A stretch of DNA of 64,000 nt from Acidobacteriota bacterium (GTDB lineage: Bacteria; Acidobacteriota; Vicinamibacteria; Vicinamibacterales; SCN-69-37): the NCBI GenBank assembly GCA_020853395.1, contig JADYYY010000016.1, positions 124,001 through 188,000 on the forward strand, written 5' to 3'. The notes under the pieces were generated by a model. The model did no database searches and was not told the DNA's origin. It saw only the letters and a list, made by a program, of their open reading frames with translations. The first letter of the stretch is position 1; every line of letters begins with the position of its first letter. Below, piece by piece: positions 4,694 through 57,531 of this stretch. The position numbers were made by a program, and so were the translations under genes.

Positions 4694-4732
4694 TTGCCGG
4701 GTTGACCGCCCGGGGCGTCGTCAGTATCATTA

Positions 4733-4750
4733 AATCCGGATTATCGGATT
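4733..4750. promoter_or_regulatory. Candidate SahR operator
   Basis: An 18-bp perfect-armed palindrome, AATCCG-6 nt-CGGATT, ends one base before the sahR ATG. Nested in it is the fully symmetric AATCCGGATT (4733-4742). The position suggests autorepression by the adjacent ArsR-family regulator and control of ahcY. This is inferred from symmetry and place; the sequence was not compared with published SahR sites. Confidence 0.55.
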
Positions 4751-4751
4751 G

Positions 4752-5720
4752 ATGACGACGCCCGCGCTGCCGTTGCTCGATTCGTTCTCCGCGCTCGCCG
4801 ACGCGACGCGCTGCCGAATGCTCTGGTTGCTCGAGCAGCACGAGCTGACGGTCGGCGAGCTCTGCGCGGTGCTCCAATTGCCCCAATCCACGGTCAGCCG
4901 TCACCTCAAGACGCTCGCCGACGCCGGCTGGGTGACCTCGCGGCGCGACGGCACGAGCCGCTACTACGCGCTGGCGATCGCGGCGGCCTCCGGCCACGCC
5001 GAGCTGTGGGAGCTGACGCGGGCCCAGTTCGCCGGCCGGCCTGGCATCGAGCAGGATGCGCGGCGGCTGGCCGCGGTGCTGGCGCGGCGCGGCGAAGCGT
5101 CGCAGCGCTTCTTCGCCTCGTCGTCCGGCGAGTGGGATCGGCTGCGCGACGAGCTGTTCGGCCGCGCGACGACGGTGCACGCGCTCATGGCGCTGTTGCC
5201 GGCGGCCTGGACGGTTGGCGATCTCGGCTGCGGCACCGGCGCGATCGTGTCGCTCCTCGCGCCGCACGTCCGCACGGTGATCGGCGTCGACGCCTCGGAC
5301 GAGATGCTCGCCGCGGCGCGCCGCCGGACGGCGTCGTTTCCCAACGTCGACTTGCGGCGCGGATCGCTCGAAGCGTTGCCGATCGCCGCGGCGACGCTCG
5401 ACGCCGCCCTGATGGTGCTCGTGCTGCACCATCTGCCGTCGCCCGTGCCGGCGCTGGCTGAGGCGTTCCGCGCGCTCAAGCCGGGCGCGCGGCTGCTCGT
5501 CGTGGACATGGCGCCGCACGAGCGCGAGGAGTACCGCCAGCAGATGGGGCACGTCTGGCTGGGATTCTCGGAGGATCAGTTGCGGAGGTTCGCCGAACAG
5601 GCGGGCTTCCCGTCGCTTGCGATGTACCCGCTGCCGCCGGCCGACGAGGCCAAAGGCCCCGCGCTCTTCGCGGCGGTCGCAGAGAAACCTGAAGACGCGC
5701 GGGCCGACACCCGCGCCTGA
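4752..5720 (+). CDS. sahR: SahR-like ArsR family regulator fused to a SAM/SAH-binding methyltransferase domain
   Basis: Transcription factor of 322 residues. Residues 8-80 form an ArsR winged helix with the recognition segment QLPQSTVSRHLKTLADAGWV. Residues 140-300 form a class I methyltransferase fold with motif I DLGCGTGAIVSLL and the post-I acid in IGVDAS. SahR proteins have this architecture, sense S-adenosylhomocysteine, and control methionine and SAM recycling. The gene directly precedes ahcY by 12 nt, which supports that role. ATG at 4752 has no Shine-Dalgarno sequence; an in-frame TTG at 4749 is adjacent, so the mRNA may be leaderless. A catalytic rather than sensory methyltransferase domain cannot be excluded. 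Confidence 0.85.
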   Translation: MTTPALPLLDSFSALADATRCRMLWLLEQHELTVGELCAVLQLPQSTVSRHLKTLADAGWVTSRRDGTSRYYALAIAAASGHAELWELTRAQFAGRPGIEQDARRLAAVLARRGEASQRFFASSSGEWDRLRDELFGRATTVHALMALLPAAWTVGDLGCGTGAIVSLLAPHVRTVIGVDASDEMLAAARRRTASFPNVDLRRGSLEALPIAAATLDAALMVLVLHHLPSPVPALAEAFRALKPGARLLVVDMAPHEREEYRQQMGHVWLGFSEDQLRRFAEQAGFPSLAMYPLPPADEAKGPALFAAVAEKPEDARADTRA

Positions 5721-9103: not shown

Positions 9104-9386
9104 GCATCGGGGCATCGGGAGAGCGGCTCAGCGGGACATCGCATCGGATCATCGGATCATCGGGACATCGAGCATCGGCAGTCCCGATGGTTCGCCCCGA
9201 TGTCCCGACGATCCGATAGCCCGATGGTCCGATAACCCGATGATCCGATGGCCCGGCGAGCTGCTCGTCGAGTCATCGGTCACCGGCTCAGCGGGACGTC
9301 GCATCGAATCAACGGGCTATCGAGCCGGGGAGTTCCGATGGTCCGCCCCGATGTCCCGATAACCCGATGATCCGATGCCCCGATGA
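9104..9386. repeat. Octamer repeat array forming two long hairpins
   Basis: Degenerate 8-bp units fill the space between two converging genes. The left part of each module reads as ATCGGNNC units (for example ATCGGATC, ATCGGGAC); the right part reads as the reverse complement, CCGATGNN. Module 1 spans about 9104-9255 and module 2 about 9272-9386. The modules are diverged copies: CGGCTCAGCGGGAC recurs at 9124 and 9284, and CCGATAACCCGATGATCC also recurs. Each module can fold into a long imperfect stem. The array ends at the stop codon of the minus-strand gene, so it may act as a two-way terminator or mRNA 3' end stabiliser. Confidence 0.8.
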
Positions 9387-10517
9387 CTAGGCTCCTGCCT
9401 TGGTAATCGGCGTGACGAGGATCTTGCGGAAGGTCACGAGCGAGTGGTCGCCCTGGATCATGAGCGGGCCGGGCGCCAGTTCGTCGTTGTCGAGCGCGCC
9501 GCCGGTGAAGGCGGGCAGCTCGGCGTTGTTGTGGATCCGGACGTCGTTGAACCACACCGAGATCCGGTTGCCGACGACGATGGCCTCGAGCTTCTGCCAT
9601 TCGCCGGCGGGCTTGCCGGCGTAGAAGTCGGCGGCCTTCCATCCGTAGATGGCGCCGAGGCTCTGCCGGCCGGCGGTGGCGCCGCCGATCGCGCCGAGCG
9701 AAAGCTGCAGCTCGTAGCGGCCGCGGATGTAGAACCCGCTGTTCTGCCGTTCGTCGAGGTTCAGCTCGGCCTCGACCTTGAAGTCCTTGAACTTCTCCTT
9801 CGTGTAGATGTTGCAGGTCGGCTTCTCGCCAGGGCCCGGCACGGCGTTCTTCATCGTGCCGTTCGTGAACGTCCAGCGGTTCACGCACTCGGTCTGCCAG
9901 GTGTCGGGCGTGAACCCGGTCCAGGCCTCCTGCCCCGCACCCGGGCCGACGATCACGACCGGCTTGCCGTACGTGTGGATGCCGTTGGCGTTGGCGTACG
10001 GCCAGACCGGCTGGTGGGTGCCCACCCACTTGATCGTGCGCGGGGCCGGGGCAGGGGCCGGAGCCGCGGGTGCGGCGGCGGCGCGGCCGGCGGCCGGCGC
10101 GGCGCCGGCTTCACCGCCGCCAGCCCGTCCCCGGCCGGCGTTCGGATTCGGCGCGCACGGCGGTCCCGGCAGCTCGTGCTGCCCGACGAGCTTGCCGCCC
10201 TCGACCTTCGCGCGGTAGATCGGGCCGCACGGGCGCACGGGGCTGTCGAGCGTGCCCTCGCCGGCGCCCTTCTGCCAGACCAGCTCGCCATTCTGAACGC
10301 TGATCGAGGCGACCGGCGTCGCGTGCGCCGACCGATCGAGGAACATGCCGTGGAGCTTGCCGTCCTTCTCGGTGACCTCGAGCCAGTAGATCAGGTTGGT
10401 GTCGGGCGCGACGCCCCGGAGATTCCATCGTCCCAGGAACTGGGCCTGCGGCTGCTGCGCGAACACCGAGGCGGTGGCCGCGGCCAGCAGGCCGGCGATC
10501 ATCAACTTCACACGCAT
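9387..10517 (-). CDS. Secreted DUF1080 (3-keto-disaccharide hydrolase-like) protein
   Basis: Exported protein of 376 residues with a signal peptide (MRVKLMIAGLLAAATASVFA). A first beta-rich region (about 30-120) is joined by an Ala/Pro/Gly linker to a C-terminal concanavalin-like DUF1080 domain (about 180-370), with hallmarks such as NSGFYIRGRYELQL, GEWQKLEAIVVGNRISVWFNDV and LMIQGDHSLVTFRKILV. DUF1080 proteins are linked to 3-ketoglycoside and other glycan degradation. ATG 10517 is preferred over an upstream in-frame codon because GGAAGGAG precedes it. It lies downstream of a Gfo/Idh/MocA oxidoreductase, a common pairing in such catabolic loci. Confidence 0.85.
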   Translation of the reverse strand: MRVKLMIAGLLAAATASVFAQQPQAQFLGRWNLRGVAPDTNLIYWLEVTEKDGKLHGMFLDRSAHATPVASISVQNGELVWQKGAGEGTLDSPVRPCGPIYRAKVEGGKLVGQHELPGPPCAPNPNAGRGRAGGGEAGAAPAAGRAAAAPAAPAPAPAPRTIKWVGTHQPVWPYANANGIHTYGKPVVIVGPGAGQEAWTGFTPDTWQTECVNRWTFTNGTMKNAVPGPGEKPTCNIYTKEKFKDFKVEAELNLDERQNSGFYIRGRYELQLSLGAIGGATAGRQSLGAIYGWKAADFYAGKPAGEWQKLEAIVVGNRISVWFNDVRIHNNAELPAFTGGALDNDELAPGPLMIQGDHSLVTFRKILVTPITKAGA

Positions 10518-38465: not shown

Positions 38466-38745
38466 CATCGGATCATCGGGACATCGGAATATCGGGACAT
38501 CGGATCGGGGGCATCGGGACATCGAGCATCGGGAGATCGGAACGCCGGGTCGGGCTATCGGGGCATCGAGCATCGAACATCGCGCGATGGTCCGATGAAC
38601 CGATGCGATGACCCGATACTCCGATGACCCGATGCGATAGCCGATGCCCCGATGTCCCGATAACCCGATGTCCCGATGCGATAGCCGATGTCCCGATGGT
38701 CCGATGTCCCGATGCGATAGCCCGATGACCCGATGACCCGATGAC
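38466..38745. repeat. Second octamer repeat array with hairpin potential
   Basis: The same 8-bp repeat type as at 9.1-9.4 kb. From 38466 to about 38585 units run as ATCGGNNC (ATCGGATC, ATCGGGAC, ATCGGAAT); from about 38586 to 38745 as CCGATGNN, interrupted three times by CCGATGCGATAG. The halves are reverse complements, so transcript or single-stranded DNA can form one long stem. The array starts at the base after the DUF3500 stop codon, and its last unit merges with the GACGGAGG ribosome site of the next gene. It lies between genes on the same strand, so it need not be only a terminator. Confidence 0.8.
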
Positions 38746-43969: not shown

Positions 43970-44090
43970 AATCGTGCGTTCCGAGTTGAGTCGTGTCAGA
44001 CTATGCGCGGCCAGTCACAGCGCACAACTCATAGAGCACCACTCATCGCGCACAACTCATCACTCAGAACCGCTCGAGCGTTCCCTCTCC

Positions 44091-53610: not shown

Positions 53611-54270
53611 CTAATCTCCGCCCGCGCCCTTGAAGTGATCGGCCTCGTCGGCGAACAGCACGTTGAAGGTGGTGAGCGAGCCGTAGCACCCGCTGACGTA
53701 ACTCTGCAGCCGGATCTTGACGTCGTCGGGCAGCTCGGACGCGTTCACCTGCTGTTCGAGCGTGCGCAGGCGATTTCTGAGCATGACGATCTTGTGGAAG
53801 AACGTCTCGATCGGAATCGTCTTCTCCTGCAATGCCGAGTTGCCTGGCCGGAGCACGAGCGTGCCGCCGCGCCATTTCTCGGCCGGCACGACGGCTGAGA
53901 TGCCGGCCTCTTCACGGATGACGCGTCGCAGGAGCAGTTCGAGATCGGCGGCAGTACCGGGAGGTGTCGTCATAGGGTCGGCGGTCCGTTCGCGATCGGC
54001 GACGATGGGGAAGGGCGCGCGGTCGGATGGACGACGCTCGCCGTAGAGCGGCGTGGCCGGCGGAGCAGTCGGGGCCGGGTTCGAGGCACCGATGCGGGGG
54101 CCACCACGGTAGTGATGGTCGCTCCCACAGTAGCCGCACGTCACCCGCAGCGGCCAGCCGTTCGCGTCCACCGCGACGATCGTGTGGATCCGGTCGGTCT
54201 TGCAGACGCGGCAGTGGTCTTCGATCGACTCCCCGGCACGGCGCCTGTCCGGCGCGGGCGGCGTGGACAT
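53611..54270 (-). CDS. Zinc-ribbon protein of unknown function
   Basis: Cytosolic protein of 219 residues. A four-cysteine ribbon near the N-terminus, CRVC (20-23) and CGYC (45-48), flanks a strand region TIVAVDANGWPLRVT. A Pro/Ala linker follows, then a helical C-terminal region with TAADLELLLRRVIREEAGISAV, WRGGTLVLRPGN and a coiled-coil-like stretch (FFHKIVMLRNRLRTLEQQVN). No family name recognised. ATG 54270 is the closest start to the ribbon; 54288 is possible. It is divergent from an ABC exporter across the 22-bp repeat region, which may control both. Confidence 0.6.
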   Translation of the reverse strand: MSTPPAPDRRRAGESIEDHCRVCKTDRIHTIVAVDANGWPLRVTCGYCGSDHHYRGGPRIGASNPAPTAPPATPLYGERRPSDRAPFPIVADRERTADPMTTPPGTAADLELLLRRVIREEAGISAVVPAEKWRGGTLVLRPGNSALQEKTIPIETFFHKIVMLRNRLRTLEQQVNASELPDDVKIRLQSYVSGCYGSLTTFNVLFADEADHFKGAGGD

Positions 54271-55009
54271 GGAGACCCATGATGCCATGCGACGGGTCAC
54301 GGGCGCCCGGCGCGCGATGTCCGCGCTGACATCCAGTCGATCCGGCCGCCTCATCGCTCCGAAGTACCGATGACCGTCACCGCCATCGCGCGGCCGTGCA
54401 TCGAGTTCGCTGGTAAGTCCTTTTGTAACAGACGGTTGCGGCGAAGCATCCACGTGTGATCGCCAGACGAGATGGGTGTCGGTGCCAGCCAAGTTGGGTG
54501 CGAGCGCCAAACAAGACGGGTGCGAGTGCCACACGAGATGGGTGTGACTGCCTGAGCCGATGGGTGGGCGTGGCGGCGACGTCGAGTGACGCCGACGTCG
54601 ATGTCGGGTGGGCATGCGATTCACGATGGGTGAGCGCTTCGGCGAAATGGGTGCGCACGCTCGCCAAGCCGGGTTGTACGTCGGGGGAACGTGGGTAGTG
54701 GTGCGGTTCGCGATTGGTGAGCCCCGCGCGTGAATGGCTGACATCGCCGGACCGGATGGGTGCGAGCACGAGCGTGGATGCCTTGGGCCGGGGGGAGTCG
54801 ATAGGTGTTCGCCGGCGCCAGGCGGGTAGCCGTCCGAACTCAACAGGCCGAGCGCGGCGTCGGTTCGTCGAAGGATCCCGAGGAAACCAAGCCGTACCGG
54901 CGGCGTCGCCCCGGTCTTGCGGAGCCGCCGCGGGTGTGAGGCTCGGAGCTGGCGGTCCGGGATCCGGGCATCCCGGCGACAACCGGTGTCTAAGTTCCCA
55001 ACCGACGTC
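54271..55009. other. Long divergent spacer without genes
   Basis: This 739-nt region between the zinc-ribbon gene and the ABC permease gene is the longest non-coding gap in the window. Its middle part is the 22-bp-period repeat array. Open frames here are Arg/Pro/His-rich shadows and the repeat period is not a multiple of three, so no gene is called. An AT-rich patch CCTTTTGTAACAGACG near 54419-54434 may be promoter DNA for the zinc-ribbon gene. Confidence 0.7.
54471..54828. repeat. Degenerate 22-bp-period tandem array (GATGGGTG core)
   Basis: About 17 units with core GATGGGTG begin at 54471, 54493, 54515, 54537, 54559, 54581, 54603, 54625, 54646, 54668, 54690, 54712, 54733, 54755, 54777, 54800 and 54821. 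Spacing is 22 bp, shifting by one base at a few units. The core is best kept in units 1-5, 8 and 14; the other 14 bases drift (units 1-3 share a GCC after position 12). A possible further half-unit lies at 54449. The spacing equals about two DNA turns, so cores lie on one face. It is neither coding nor CRISPR-like. Confidence 0.8.
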
Positions 55010-56746
55010 ATGACCTCGCCGCCCGGGCAGCTTCGCGCGCTGACTGAGGTGTTCTTCGCACGGTTCTTCGAAAGCGAGAACACGGCGAACCGTACGGACC
55101 CCACGCGGTCGTTCCTGTGGCTGGTCGGCATCGTCAGCGGTCCCGGCATCCTGTTCGCGTTCTATCGGCACTTCGAGTGGGAATGGGTCGCGCGGTCGCG
55201 GAACGAGCTCGCGCTCGATGCGATCGCGCGCGCTGACGTGACGTCCTATCTCGTCTGGACGTGCGCGGCGGTGGCGGTGGTCGCGGCCGGGCGCTGGCCG
55301 ACGCTGCTGCTCGACCAGCGCGACGCGCTGATTCTCGGCGCGCTGCCGGTGCGAAGGCCGACGATGCTTCTCGCCAAGCTCGTCGCGCTCGGCCGCTACA
55401 CCGCCCTCCTGGCGATCGGCATGCACGCGGGCGCCTCGCTCCTGTACGGCATGGGCCTCGGCCTCGTGCGCACGCCGACGGCCGCGACACGAACGTTCCT
55501 CGCGCACTTCGCCGCCAGTGCCGGTCTCACGGTGTTCGTCATGGCCGTCGTGGTCACGATTCAGGCCGCCGGCCTCCTCCTGGTCGGACCACGCCGGTTC
55601 GTGCGCGCGTCGACGACACTGCAGATGGCGTTCGTCGGTCTGGTGCTGCTCGTCTGTGTCGCCACGCCCGGCGCCGCCGAGTTGAATGCGCCGGGCTTCG
55701 CTGCCGCGCCGTCCGGTCAGGCCTGGCTGCCGACGCTGTGGTTTCTCGGCATCTTCGAGGTGGTCGCCGGCACGCCAGCCCACGCGCTGCACCGGCTCGC
55801 TGGTGTCGGTGCCGCCGCGCTCGCCGTCACGTGCGCCGTGGCTCTCGTGGCCTTCCCGCTCGCCGGTCACGTGGTGCTGCGGTCGATTGCGGCGTCGGCC
55901 GCGCCGTCGCTTCCGTTGCTCCGGCGGCTGACCGCACAGGTGCCGCGGCTCCTCGCCGGCGAGTCGCCGGTGCGCGCCGCCGTGCAGTTCGCGCTCGCCT
56001 CGCTCGGACGCGCGCCCGCCCCGCGCCTGGTACTCGCGCTCGCGTACGCGGTGGCGATCGCCGCGCTCGTGCCCGCGTTCGCGCACCTTCACGCCGGTGA
56101 CGCCGCGCCGCAGGGGATGTCCACCGTTCCAGAGCTCGCCTTCCCGTTCGTCGTCGCCTTCTTCACGCTGCTGGGTTTTCGGATCGCCATCAGCACGCCG
56201 GTCGAACTGCAGGGCCGCTGGCTGTTTCTTCACGTCGACTTCCCGCCGCTCGCGGGCCGAACGGCGGTCTGGCGTCTCCTGTTCGCGCTGGCCGTCGTGC
56301 CGTGCGTCCTATTGACCCTTGCCGTCGGCGCGTCGTTGTGGGGACCGGCGTGGGGCATCGCGCGCGCCGCCGTCGCCTTCACCGCCGGCATCTTCGCGCT
56401 CGAGATCTTTCTCTGGGGTTATGTCGGGATGCCGTGCTCGCGGCCGCCGGCGGCCGAGGGCTTCAGAAGCCGCTGGCTCGCGTTGCTGCTCGGCCTCGAG
56501 CTCTTCTGCTATGAATCGGCCGCCGCGCAGCTTCGCTGGCAGAACAGCCTTGGACCGATCGCGGCACAGGCCGCGCTCTTCGCCATCGGGGCGGTGGTGG
56601 CGCACGCCGGTGGGCGCTGGGCCGCGATCACCAACGCGGACGTCGACGATGATGACGCCGTCATCCGGCTGAATCTCGAGGTCGTCGGACGAGCCGTATC
56701 TTCGACCGCGAGACCGGCCGCGGCCAACGGCGCACGAGGCAGGTGA
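55010..56746 (+). CDS. ABC-2 type exporter permease
   Basis: Integral membrane protein, 578 aa, with about twelve hydrophobic helices spread over the whole chain (for example LVWTCAAVAVVAAGRWPTLL, LTVFVMAVVVTIQAAGLLLV and VAFTAGIFALEIFLWG). A cytosolic acidic patch NADVDDDDAVIRLNLE is near the C-terminus. It is the membrane half of an ABC exporter whose ATPase gene follows, overlapping or touching at the 3' end. ATG 55010 is chosen over upstream in-frame codons, which add Arg-rich non-membrane sequence. Substrate unknown. Confidence 0.82.
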   Translation: MTSPPGQLRALTEVFFARFFESENTANRTDPTRSFLWLVGIVSGPGILFAFYRHFEWEWVARSRNELALDAIARADVTSYLVWTCAAVAVVAAGRWPTLLLDQRDALILGALPVRRPTMLLAKLVALGRYTALLAIGMHAGASLLYGMGLGLVRTPTAATRTFLAHFAASAGLTVFVMAVVVTIQAAGLLLVGPRRFVRASTTLQMAFVGLVLLVCVATPGAAELNAPGFAAAPSGQAWLPTLWFLGIFEVVAGTPAHALHRLAGVGAAALAVTCAVALVAFPLAGHVVLRSIAASAAPSLPLLRRLTAQVPRLLAGESPVRAAVQFALASLGRAPAPRLVLALAYAVAIAALVPAFAHLHAGDAAPQGMSTVPELAFPFVVAFFTLLGFRIAISTPVELQGRWLFLHVDFPPLAGRTAVWRLLFALAVVPCVLLTLAVGASLWGPAWGIARAAVAFTAGIFALEIFLWGYVGMPCSRPPAAEGFRSRWLALLLGLELFCYESAAAQLRWQNSLGPIAAQAALFAIGAVVAHAGGRWAAITNADVDDDDAVIRLNLEVVGRAVSSTARPAAANGARGR

Positions 56747-56763
56747 ACCACGCAGGAGGACGC

Positions 56764-57531
56764 ATGCTCGAGGTTCGTGACGTCTCGAAACGCTACGGCG
56801 CCTTCACCGCGGTGCGGCACGTCAGCTTCGCCGTGAAGCCCGGCGAAGTCCTCGGCTACCTCGGGCCCAACGGGTCGGGCAAGTCCACGACCGTCCGCAT
56901 GCTCGTGGGGCTGATGCCGCCCACGAGCGGCGCTATTCTCCTCGATGGTGAGGACATCCATCGCGATCTCGTCGCATACAAGGCGCAGATCGGGTACGTG
57001 CCGGAGGAGGCACACGTCTACACGTATCTCACGGGGCCCGAGTACCTGCGACTGAGCGGCCGCCTGCGGGGCATTCCCGACGGCCTGCTCGACCGCAAGA
57101 TCGATCGTCTGCTGAACCTGTTCGAGCTCGATACCGACTACCACGCGCCGCTGTCGTCGTTCTCGAAAGGGATGCGGCAGAAAGTGTTGCTGTCCGCCGC
57201 GCTCCTTCACAACCCCCGGATCGTCGTCCTCGACGAGCCGGCGTCGGGGCTGGACGTGTCGACGGCGCTCGTGCTGCGCACGGTCGTACGCTCGCTGGCC
57301 GACGACGGCCGCATCATCTTCTACAGCTCGCACGAGCTCGACACCGTCGAGCGCATCAGCACGCGCGTGATGATCCTGCACGAGGGGACGGTCGTGGCCG
57401 ACGACTCGCCACAGCGGCTGCGCGAGCTGGCGCACGTGCCGTCGCTCGAAGACGTCTTCGCCAAGCTGACCGTGCGCCAGCAGCTCGACGAGATCGCCGG
57501 GGGCGTCATCGAGGCCGTGCGCCTGCGATAG
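56764..57531 (+). CDS. ABC transporter ATP-binding protein
   Basis: Cytosolic ATPase, 255 aa, for the preceding permease. Walker A GPNGSGKST, Q-loop IGYVPEEAHVYTYLT, signature LSSFSKGMRQKV (a variant of LSGGQ typical of ABC-2 exporters), Walker B RIVVLDEPASGLD, and the switch His in YSSHELDTVERI. ATG 56764 is favoured by GCAGGAGG immediately upstream; GTG 56743, which overlaps the permease stop, is less likely. Confidence 0.94.
   Translation: MLEVRDVSKRYGAFTAVRHVSFAVKPGEVLGYLGPNGSGKSTTVRMLVGLMPPTSGAILLDGEDIHRDLVAYKAQIGYVPEEAHVYTYLTGPEYLRLSGRLRGIPDGLLDRKIDRLLNLFELDTDYHAPLSSFSKGMRQKVLLSAALLHNPRIVVLDEPASGLDVSTALVLRTVVRSLADDGRIIFYSSHELDTVERISTRVMILHEGTVVADDSPQRLRELAHVPSLEDVFAKLTVRQQLDEIAGGVIEAVRLR

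Follow-up and report, generated by a model that had tools for sequence, protein, structure and literature searches.

What is a run of short repeats, set 22 bp apart in the gap between two divergent acidobacterial genes, there to do? The window, by which we mean the whole 64-kb stretch of DNA that was analysed, belongs to a genome of the SCN-69-37 family (G000), and carries at 54471..54828, on the plus strand, an array of 17 directional units with the core GATGGGTG. The units keep a 22-bp register with four single-base slips, the spacings being, in order, seven of 22 bp, one of 21, three of 22, one of 21, two of 22, one of 23 and one of 21. The array lies between a zinc-ribbon protein gene on the minus strand (53611..54288) and, on the plus strand, an ABC exporter membrane protein or permease (55010..56746, start approximate, no Pfam family) followed by its ABC ATPase (56743..57531), all of them neighbours outside the element. 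An earlier note on this DNA had described the divergent genes and about 17 units with single-base slips, and both descriptions hold: the array is real and far above shuffled sequence. The core word needs trimming, as exact GATGGGTG occurs in only 5 of the 17 cores and the real common core is GGGTG, the T of which is present in every unit.

The periodicity is strong and specific. At lag 22 the autocorrelation is 0.46, lags 44 and 66 still give 0.43-0.44, and there is no signal at lag 11. The multi-lag score of 0.445 compares with a dinucleotide-shuffle mean of 0.329 (sd 0.0075, maximum 0.361, n=1000) and is the highest among the 380-bp stretches sampled across the window. This is also the sole phased GGGTG chain in the window when four of six slots must be filled at any period from 9 to 60, appearing at 22 and at its double, 44. 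The first eight units, taken in strict register without adjustment, already give a conserved block that none of 2000 permutations reaches. The word GATGGGTG by itself shows no enrichment in the window (at most one mismatch being allowed, it matches 56 times, against 52 expected), so the signal is the phasing and not the word. GC skew shows no switch at the array.

Is the array peculiar to this locus? A motif search of this and related genomes, of the kind that the earlier note had proposed, revealed that it is not. A profile built from the unit sequences alone found two more arrays in G000, one on contig C11 (L106 4503-4962; 20-21 units, slips of -2 and -1) and one on contig C19 (L142 4921-5206; 14 units, one slip of -1), and at least seven further arrays in two other genera of the family: in G003 (MAG ERR1654120_bin.28) on contigs C139, C392 and C524, and in G007 (Acidobacteria bacterium SCN 69-37) on C8, C9, C19 and the end of C2. 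The other 11 genomes of the family gave at best chance-level profile matches (two were looked at directly), and about 180 further relatives showed no array. Absence from most of the family indicates that the array is not essential. Some weak profile matches in other genomes, on inspection, resemble coding sequence or 8-bp repeats, and candidate matches at G000 C1 and C3 held no array on inspection. The exact fourfold pattern among 396 genomes of the phylum occurs only in G000 and in two homogeneous minisatellites, a BLAST search of the window array against plasmids and 40 relatives returned chance coding matches only, and the pattern of four GGGTG at 22 bp gave single scattered matches in viral contigs among the matches listed. 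No description of such arrays was found in literature searches. Each array has different genes beside it; an aminotransferase, a glycogen phosphorylase-like gene with SMP-30, a tRNA synthetase with a deaminase, and a STAS gene are among them. All three G000 arrays lie between divergent genes, while some of those in G003 sit at convergent 3' gene ends.

Comparison of ten arrays defines the unit (the G003, G007, C11 and C19 sequences were transcribed by hand for these computations). Over 136 units the consensus is roughly GGGTG-N3-G-Y-G-CGA-..C-GC-..-A-T, with the T of GGGTG kept in 95% of units and about 13-21 units per array. All ten arrays show a period of 22/44 only and nothing at 11, with a 44-bp higher order in the G003 and C11 arrays. 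A dyad was sought within the unit and none rose above column-permuted units; GGGTG-N3-GYG-CGA is, on this consensus, a directional site with no dyad.

In G003 and G007, the only two genomes of the collection where it was found, a head block precedes the array, its [GC]TT[AG]C standing exactly 39 bp ahead of the first GGGTG (read by eye). Across this shared head block lies a second, inverted array with a period of 42-43 bp (L108 about 4700-5000; L066 3890-4178; L064 2896-3113), which faces away from the 22-bp array and in G003 has the core TCCGGAAAGYG on the other strand. This left arm is not detectable at the three G000 arrays. The window may retain traces of such a layout: a possible degenerate unit 0 at 54449..54470 on the plus strand, ACGTG TGATCGCC... 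in the correct phase, and before it a possible head-block remnant (54425..54448, plus strand) with GTTGC at 54435, 39 bp ahead of the first GGGTG. A counterpart of this GTTGC was not seen at the other two G000 arrays, which makes the link to the head block tentative. The four slips, together with several cores that differ from GGGTG, suggest that the window copy, which is among the more degenerate, may be decaying.

The earlier note had further claimed that core and spacing are kept while the linker drifts, and comparisons between copies bear this out in large part. In G003, L064 and L065 differ at 1 of 60 core positions against 61 of 204 linker positions (p=4e-7), and L064 and L066 at 8 of 60 against 89 of 204 (p=1e-5); the comparisons within this genome (p=4e-7 to 6e-5) are not mutually independent. 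In G007 the pair L108/L109 behaves alike (6/60 vs 51/204, p=0.012), while in L107/L111 the core fares no better than the linker (20/60 vs 76/204, p=0.65) and middle units lack the core, with the register still kept. At the level of substitutions, then, these alignments show conservation of core over linker in two of the three copy groups. Whole arrays diverge between copies (three separate pairs have identities of 78%, 64% and 63%), yet not one gap occurs in about 1.1 kb, with 259 substitutions, when the right arms of three copy pairs are aligned. Taking 0.02 or 0.05 indels per substitution as usual for neutral DNA, the chance of zero gaps is about 0.006 at the lower rate and 2e-6 at the higher, so gapless right arms would be unlikely at such rates. 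Changes between copies have no consistent 3-bp periodicity, and the unit length is no multiple of three.

What kind of element would keep its register so strictly while its spacers drift? The best reading, to which we would give about an even chance, is that the window array is one of three G000 copies of a dispersed, lineage-specific intergenic element that serves as a cooperative protein-binding array. Each copy lines up about 13-21 directional sites, GGGTG-N3-GYG-CGA..., one every 22 bp, and in the G003 and G007 genera the row faces outward from the head block with the inverted second array opposite. A putative sequence-specific protein would occupy every unit, and adjacent molecules, spaced by two helical turns, would touch each other; through such contacts the array could be coated cooperatively by an extended nucleoprotein filament. 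Binding at 22-bp intervals along one side of the DNA is established for BvgA (PMC7250471), and the 22-bp iterons of R6K and pPS10 (PMC4980987) are a further case of proteins that work on repeats of this length. The earlier note had placed the cores on one side of the helix, which is true only locally, as each 22-bp step rotates by about 34 degrees at 10.5 bp/turn, so that successive sites fall close to, but not precisely on, a single face, unless the bound DNA were unwound to 11 bp/turn. Since no copy shares its neighbouring genes with another, the role is likely to be exerted at the DNA level, as a multi-site anchor, a site for bridging or segregation or a general cis element, and not as an operator of the ABC exporter.

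Could the arrays instead be the ends or remnants of a mobile element, a transposon or MITE with many transposase sites per end, whose copies were dispersed by transposition and then lost their genes? The dispersal at unrelated loci, the pair of inverted arms that G003 and G007 have about a common head block, and the divergence of copies as whole arrays all agree with this, and two copies adjoin insertion sequences: an IS21 istA (L065 4440-5297) and an IS5-like reading frame, recognised by eye, at a contig end (L110 3200-3502, no Pfam match to the fragment). The IS21 end, though, interrupts the head block of L065, which marks IS21 as a later insertion and not the carrier. The outer ends of aligned copies share no terminal sequence, and the neighbours tested at the three G000 arrays include no transposase family. 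The ends of Mu, Tn7 and Tn5053 each carry several 19-22-bp transposase sites in a row; the arrays described here differ from them in lacking a transposase and common termini, and their 13-21 sites far exceed known ends. A mobile origin is unlikely on this evidence.

An old minisatellite that has drifted neutrally appears more doubtful still. Relatives are poor in arrays, the window copy has slips, and other genomes of the order do hold 22-bp minisatellites. The earlier note had named as evidence against selection relatives that lack the array at this locus while carrying similar minisatellites elsewhere. The array is indeed missing at the zinc-ribbon gene of relatives, but gene order there differs, and the minisatellites of G017, G022 and G385 look different, having near-identical units; those of L067 (G017 C11:28622-28849) and L068 (G022 C97) are homogeneous 22-23-bp GGGTG repeats that contrast with the diverged phased arrays. 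The window itself contains other degenerate repeats, which would also suit a neutral origin. At 9104-9390 and 38466-38745 there are intergenic arrays of 8 bp (CATCGGGA..., then the inverted form CCGATGTC...), which could fold into long hairpins and in which TRF counts up to about 19% indels. Relatives have 8-bp arrays of a similar kind, with AATGGGTG or GATCGGGT (L011 1948-1998; L080 1220-1300), and a short 14-bp tandem array, TCATAGCGCACAAC, lies at window 44015-44060. What makes neutral drift unlikely is the bias of conservation towards the core combined with the lack of indels: none in the diverged right arms, and by TRF 2% in the window array, against 16-19% in the 8-bp arrays at 38591-38745.

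The earlier note had preferred a local multi-site operator for the divergent zinc-ribbon and exporter genes, with the zinc-ribbon protein as an obvious candidate ligand. The divergent setting of the three G000 arrays is what such an operator would have, and 22-bp-phased operators exist (PMC7250471). The changing neighbours, convergent 3' ends included, speak against an operator of one operon, and, where a row of the BvgA kind abuts the -35 element of the promoter it regulates, a sigma-70-like promoter was not found in the gap (54200-55100), although promoters of the phylum may differ. The zinc-ribbon gene itself is conserved without the array. Its 225-aa product has an invariant CxxC...CxxC motif; identity across the order is 56-67%, yet the protein falls in no Pfam or NCBIfam family, and its AlphaFold model is poor (mean pLDDT 57). 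The gene was found in 19 of 40 relatives, of which G007 alone has arrays; the 22-bp repeat is absent upstream of the gene at 15 homologues, and neither the zinc-ribbon homologues nor the permease homologues showed an array at their loci. Conversely, no zinc-ribbon homologue was detected in G003 (87% complete), although that genome has three arrays. Within the order this is an unremarkable conserved protein. Its candidacy as the ligand is not supported, because many relatives have the gene without the array, G003 has arrays with no homologue detected, and the other arrays adjoin different genes. We regard the local operator as improbable.

Least probable among these alternatives is that the repeats work as RNA once transcribed, for instance by soaking up an RNA-binding protein as a sponge. 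In its favour are the directionality of the G-rich core and two arrays whose folding surpasses that of shuffles (L106, z -3.8; L064, z -2.1), but the window array (z 0.2 and 0.0) and the G007 arrays fold like shuffles, Rfam gives no match, and RNA function does not need an exact 22-bp DNA register. A CRISPR array was rejected, as the core is 5-8 bp and the spacers are partly conserved, where near-identical repeats with unrelated spacers would be expected.

If the arrays are coated by a protein as proposed, they might be the DNA half of an undescribed nucleoprotein system of a few acidobacterial genera, in which a dedicated putative protein coats 22-bp-phased arrays at several chromosomal sites and pairs or anchors them for chromosome organisation, segregation or the maintenance of a selfish element. 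This wider proposal is speculative, and we lean against it. A kept core with drifting spacers is already known in dispersed bacterial repeats. Here the retention of a rigid double-turn spacing through 22-37% divergence between copies turns the idea that a protein reads the arrays into a concrete, testable statement, and the presence of arrays in three genomes together with their absence in eleven relatives of the family provides a genetic filter for the binder.

Several known systems share parts of this picture. The 22-bp iterons of the plasmids R6K and pPS10 (PMC4980987) are likewise directional repeats in a row, and the arrays fall within the 17-22 bp range of iterons, but they have no replication initiator nearby (a Rep_3 initiator was found in 0 of 15 genomes tested, with the positive control detected) and occur in several copies per genome beside ordinary chromosomal genes. 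BvgA sites have the same spacing of 22 bp, or two helical turns, and several weak ones follow each other along one face of the DNA (PMC7250471). The promoter described there takes up six BvgA dimers, each head-to-head (PMC7250471), whereas the units here are directional, without inverted half-sites, and do not belong to any one promoter. STAR elements of Staphylococcus aureus, with a 14-bp core, T(G/A/T)TGTTG(G/T)GGCCC(C/A), are intergenic direct repeats with a kept core, variable spacers and a start signature; their loci differ per species, their presence among species is uneven and their function is unknown (PMC3532100). The arrays share the dispersed intergenic loci and variable spacers, but their core, GGGTG or GATGGGTG, is not the STAR core. 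STAR spacers are at least 40 bp, with 1-7 motifs at the loci studied (PMC3532100), in contrast to the 5-8-bp core, rigid 22-bp period, 13-21 units and within-locus divergence of units seen here. By distribution the closest kind is the STAR-type dispersed repeat, and by geometry the 22-bp-phased BvgA sites or iterons. Our verdict is that the array belongs with the dispersed intergenic repeats of the STAR sort, with a rigid 22-bp phase as its framework.
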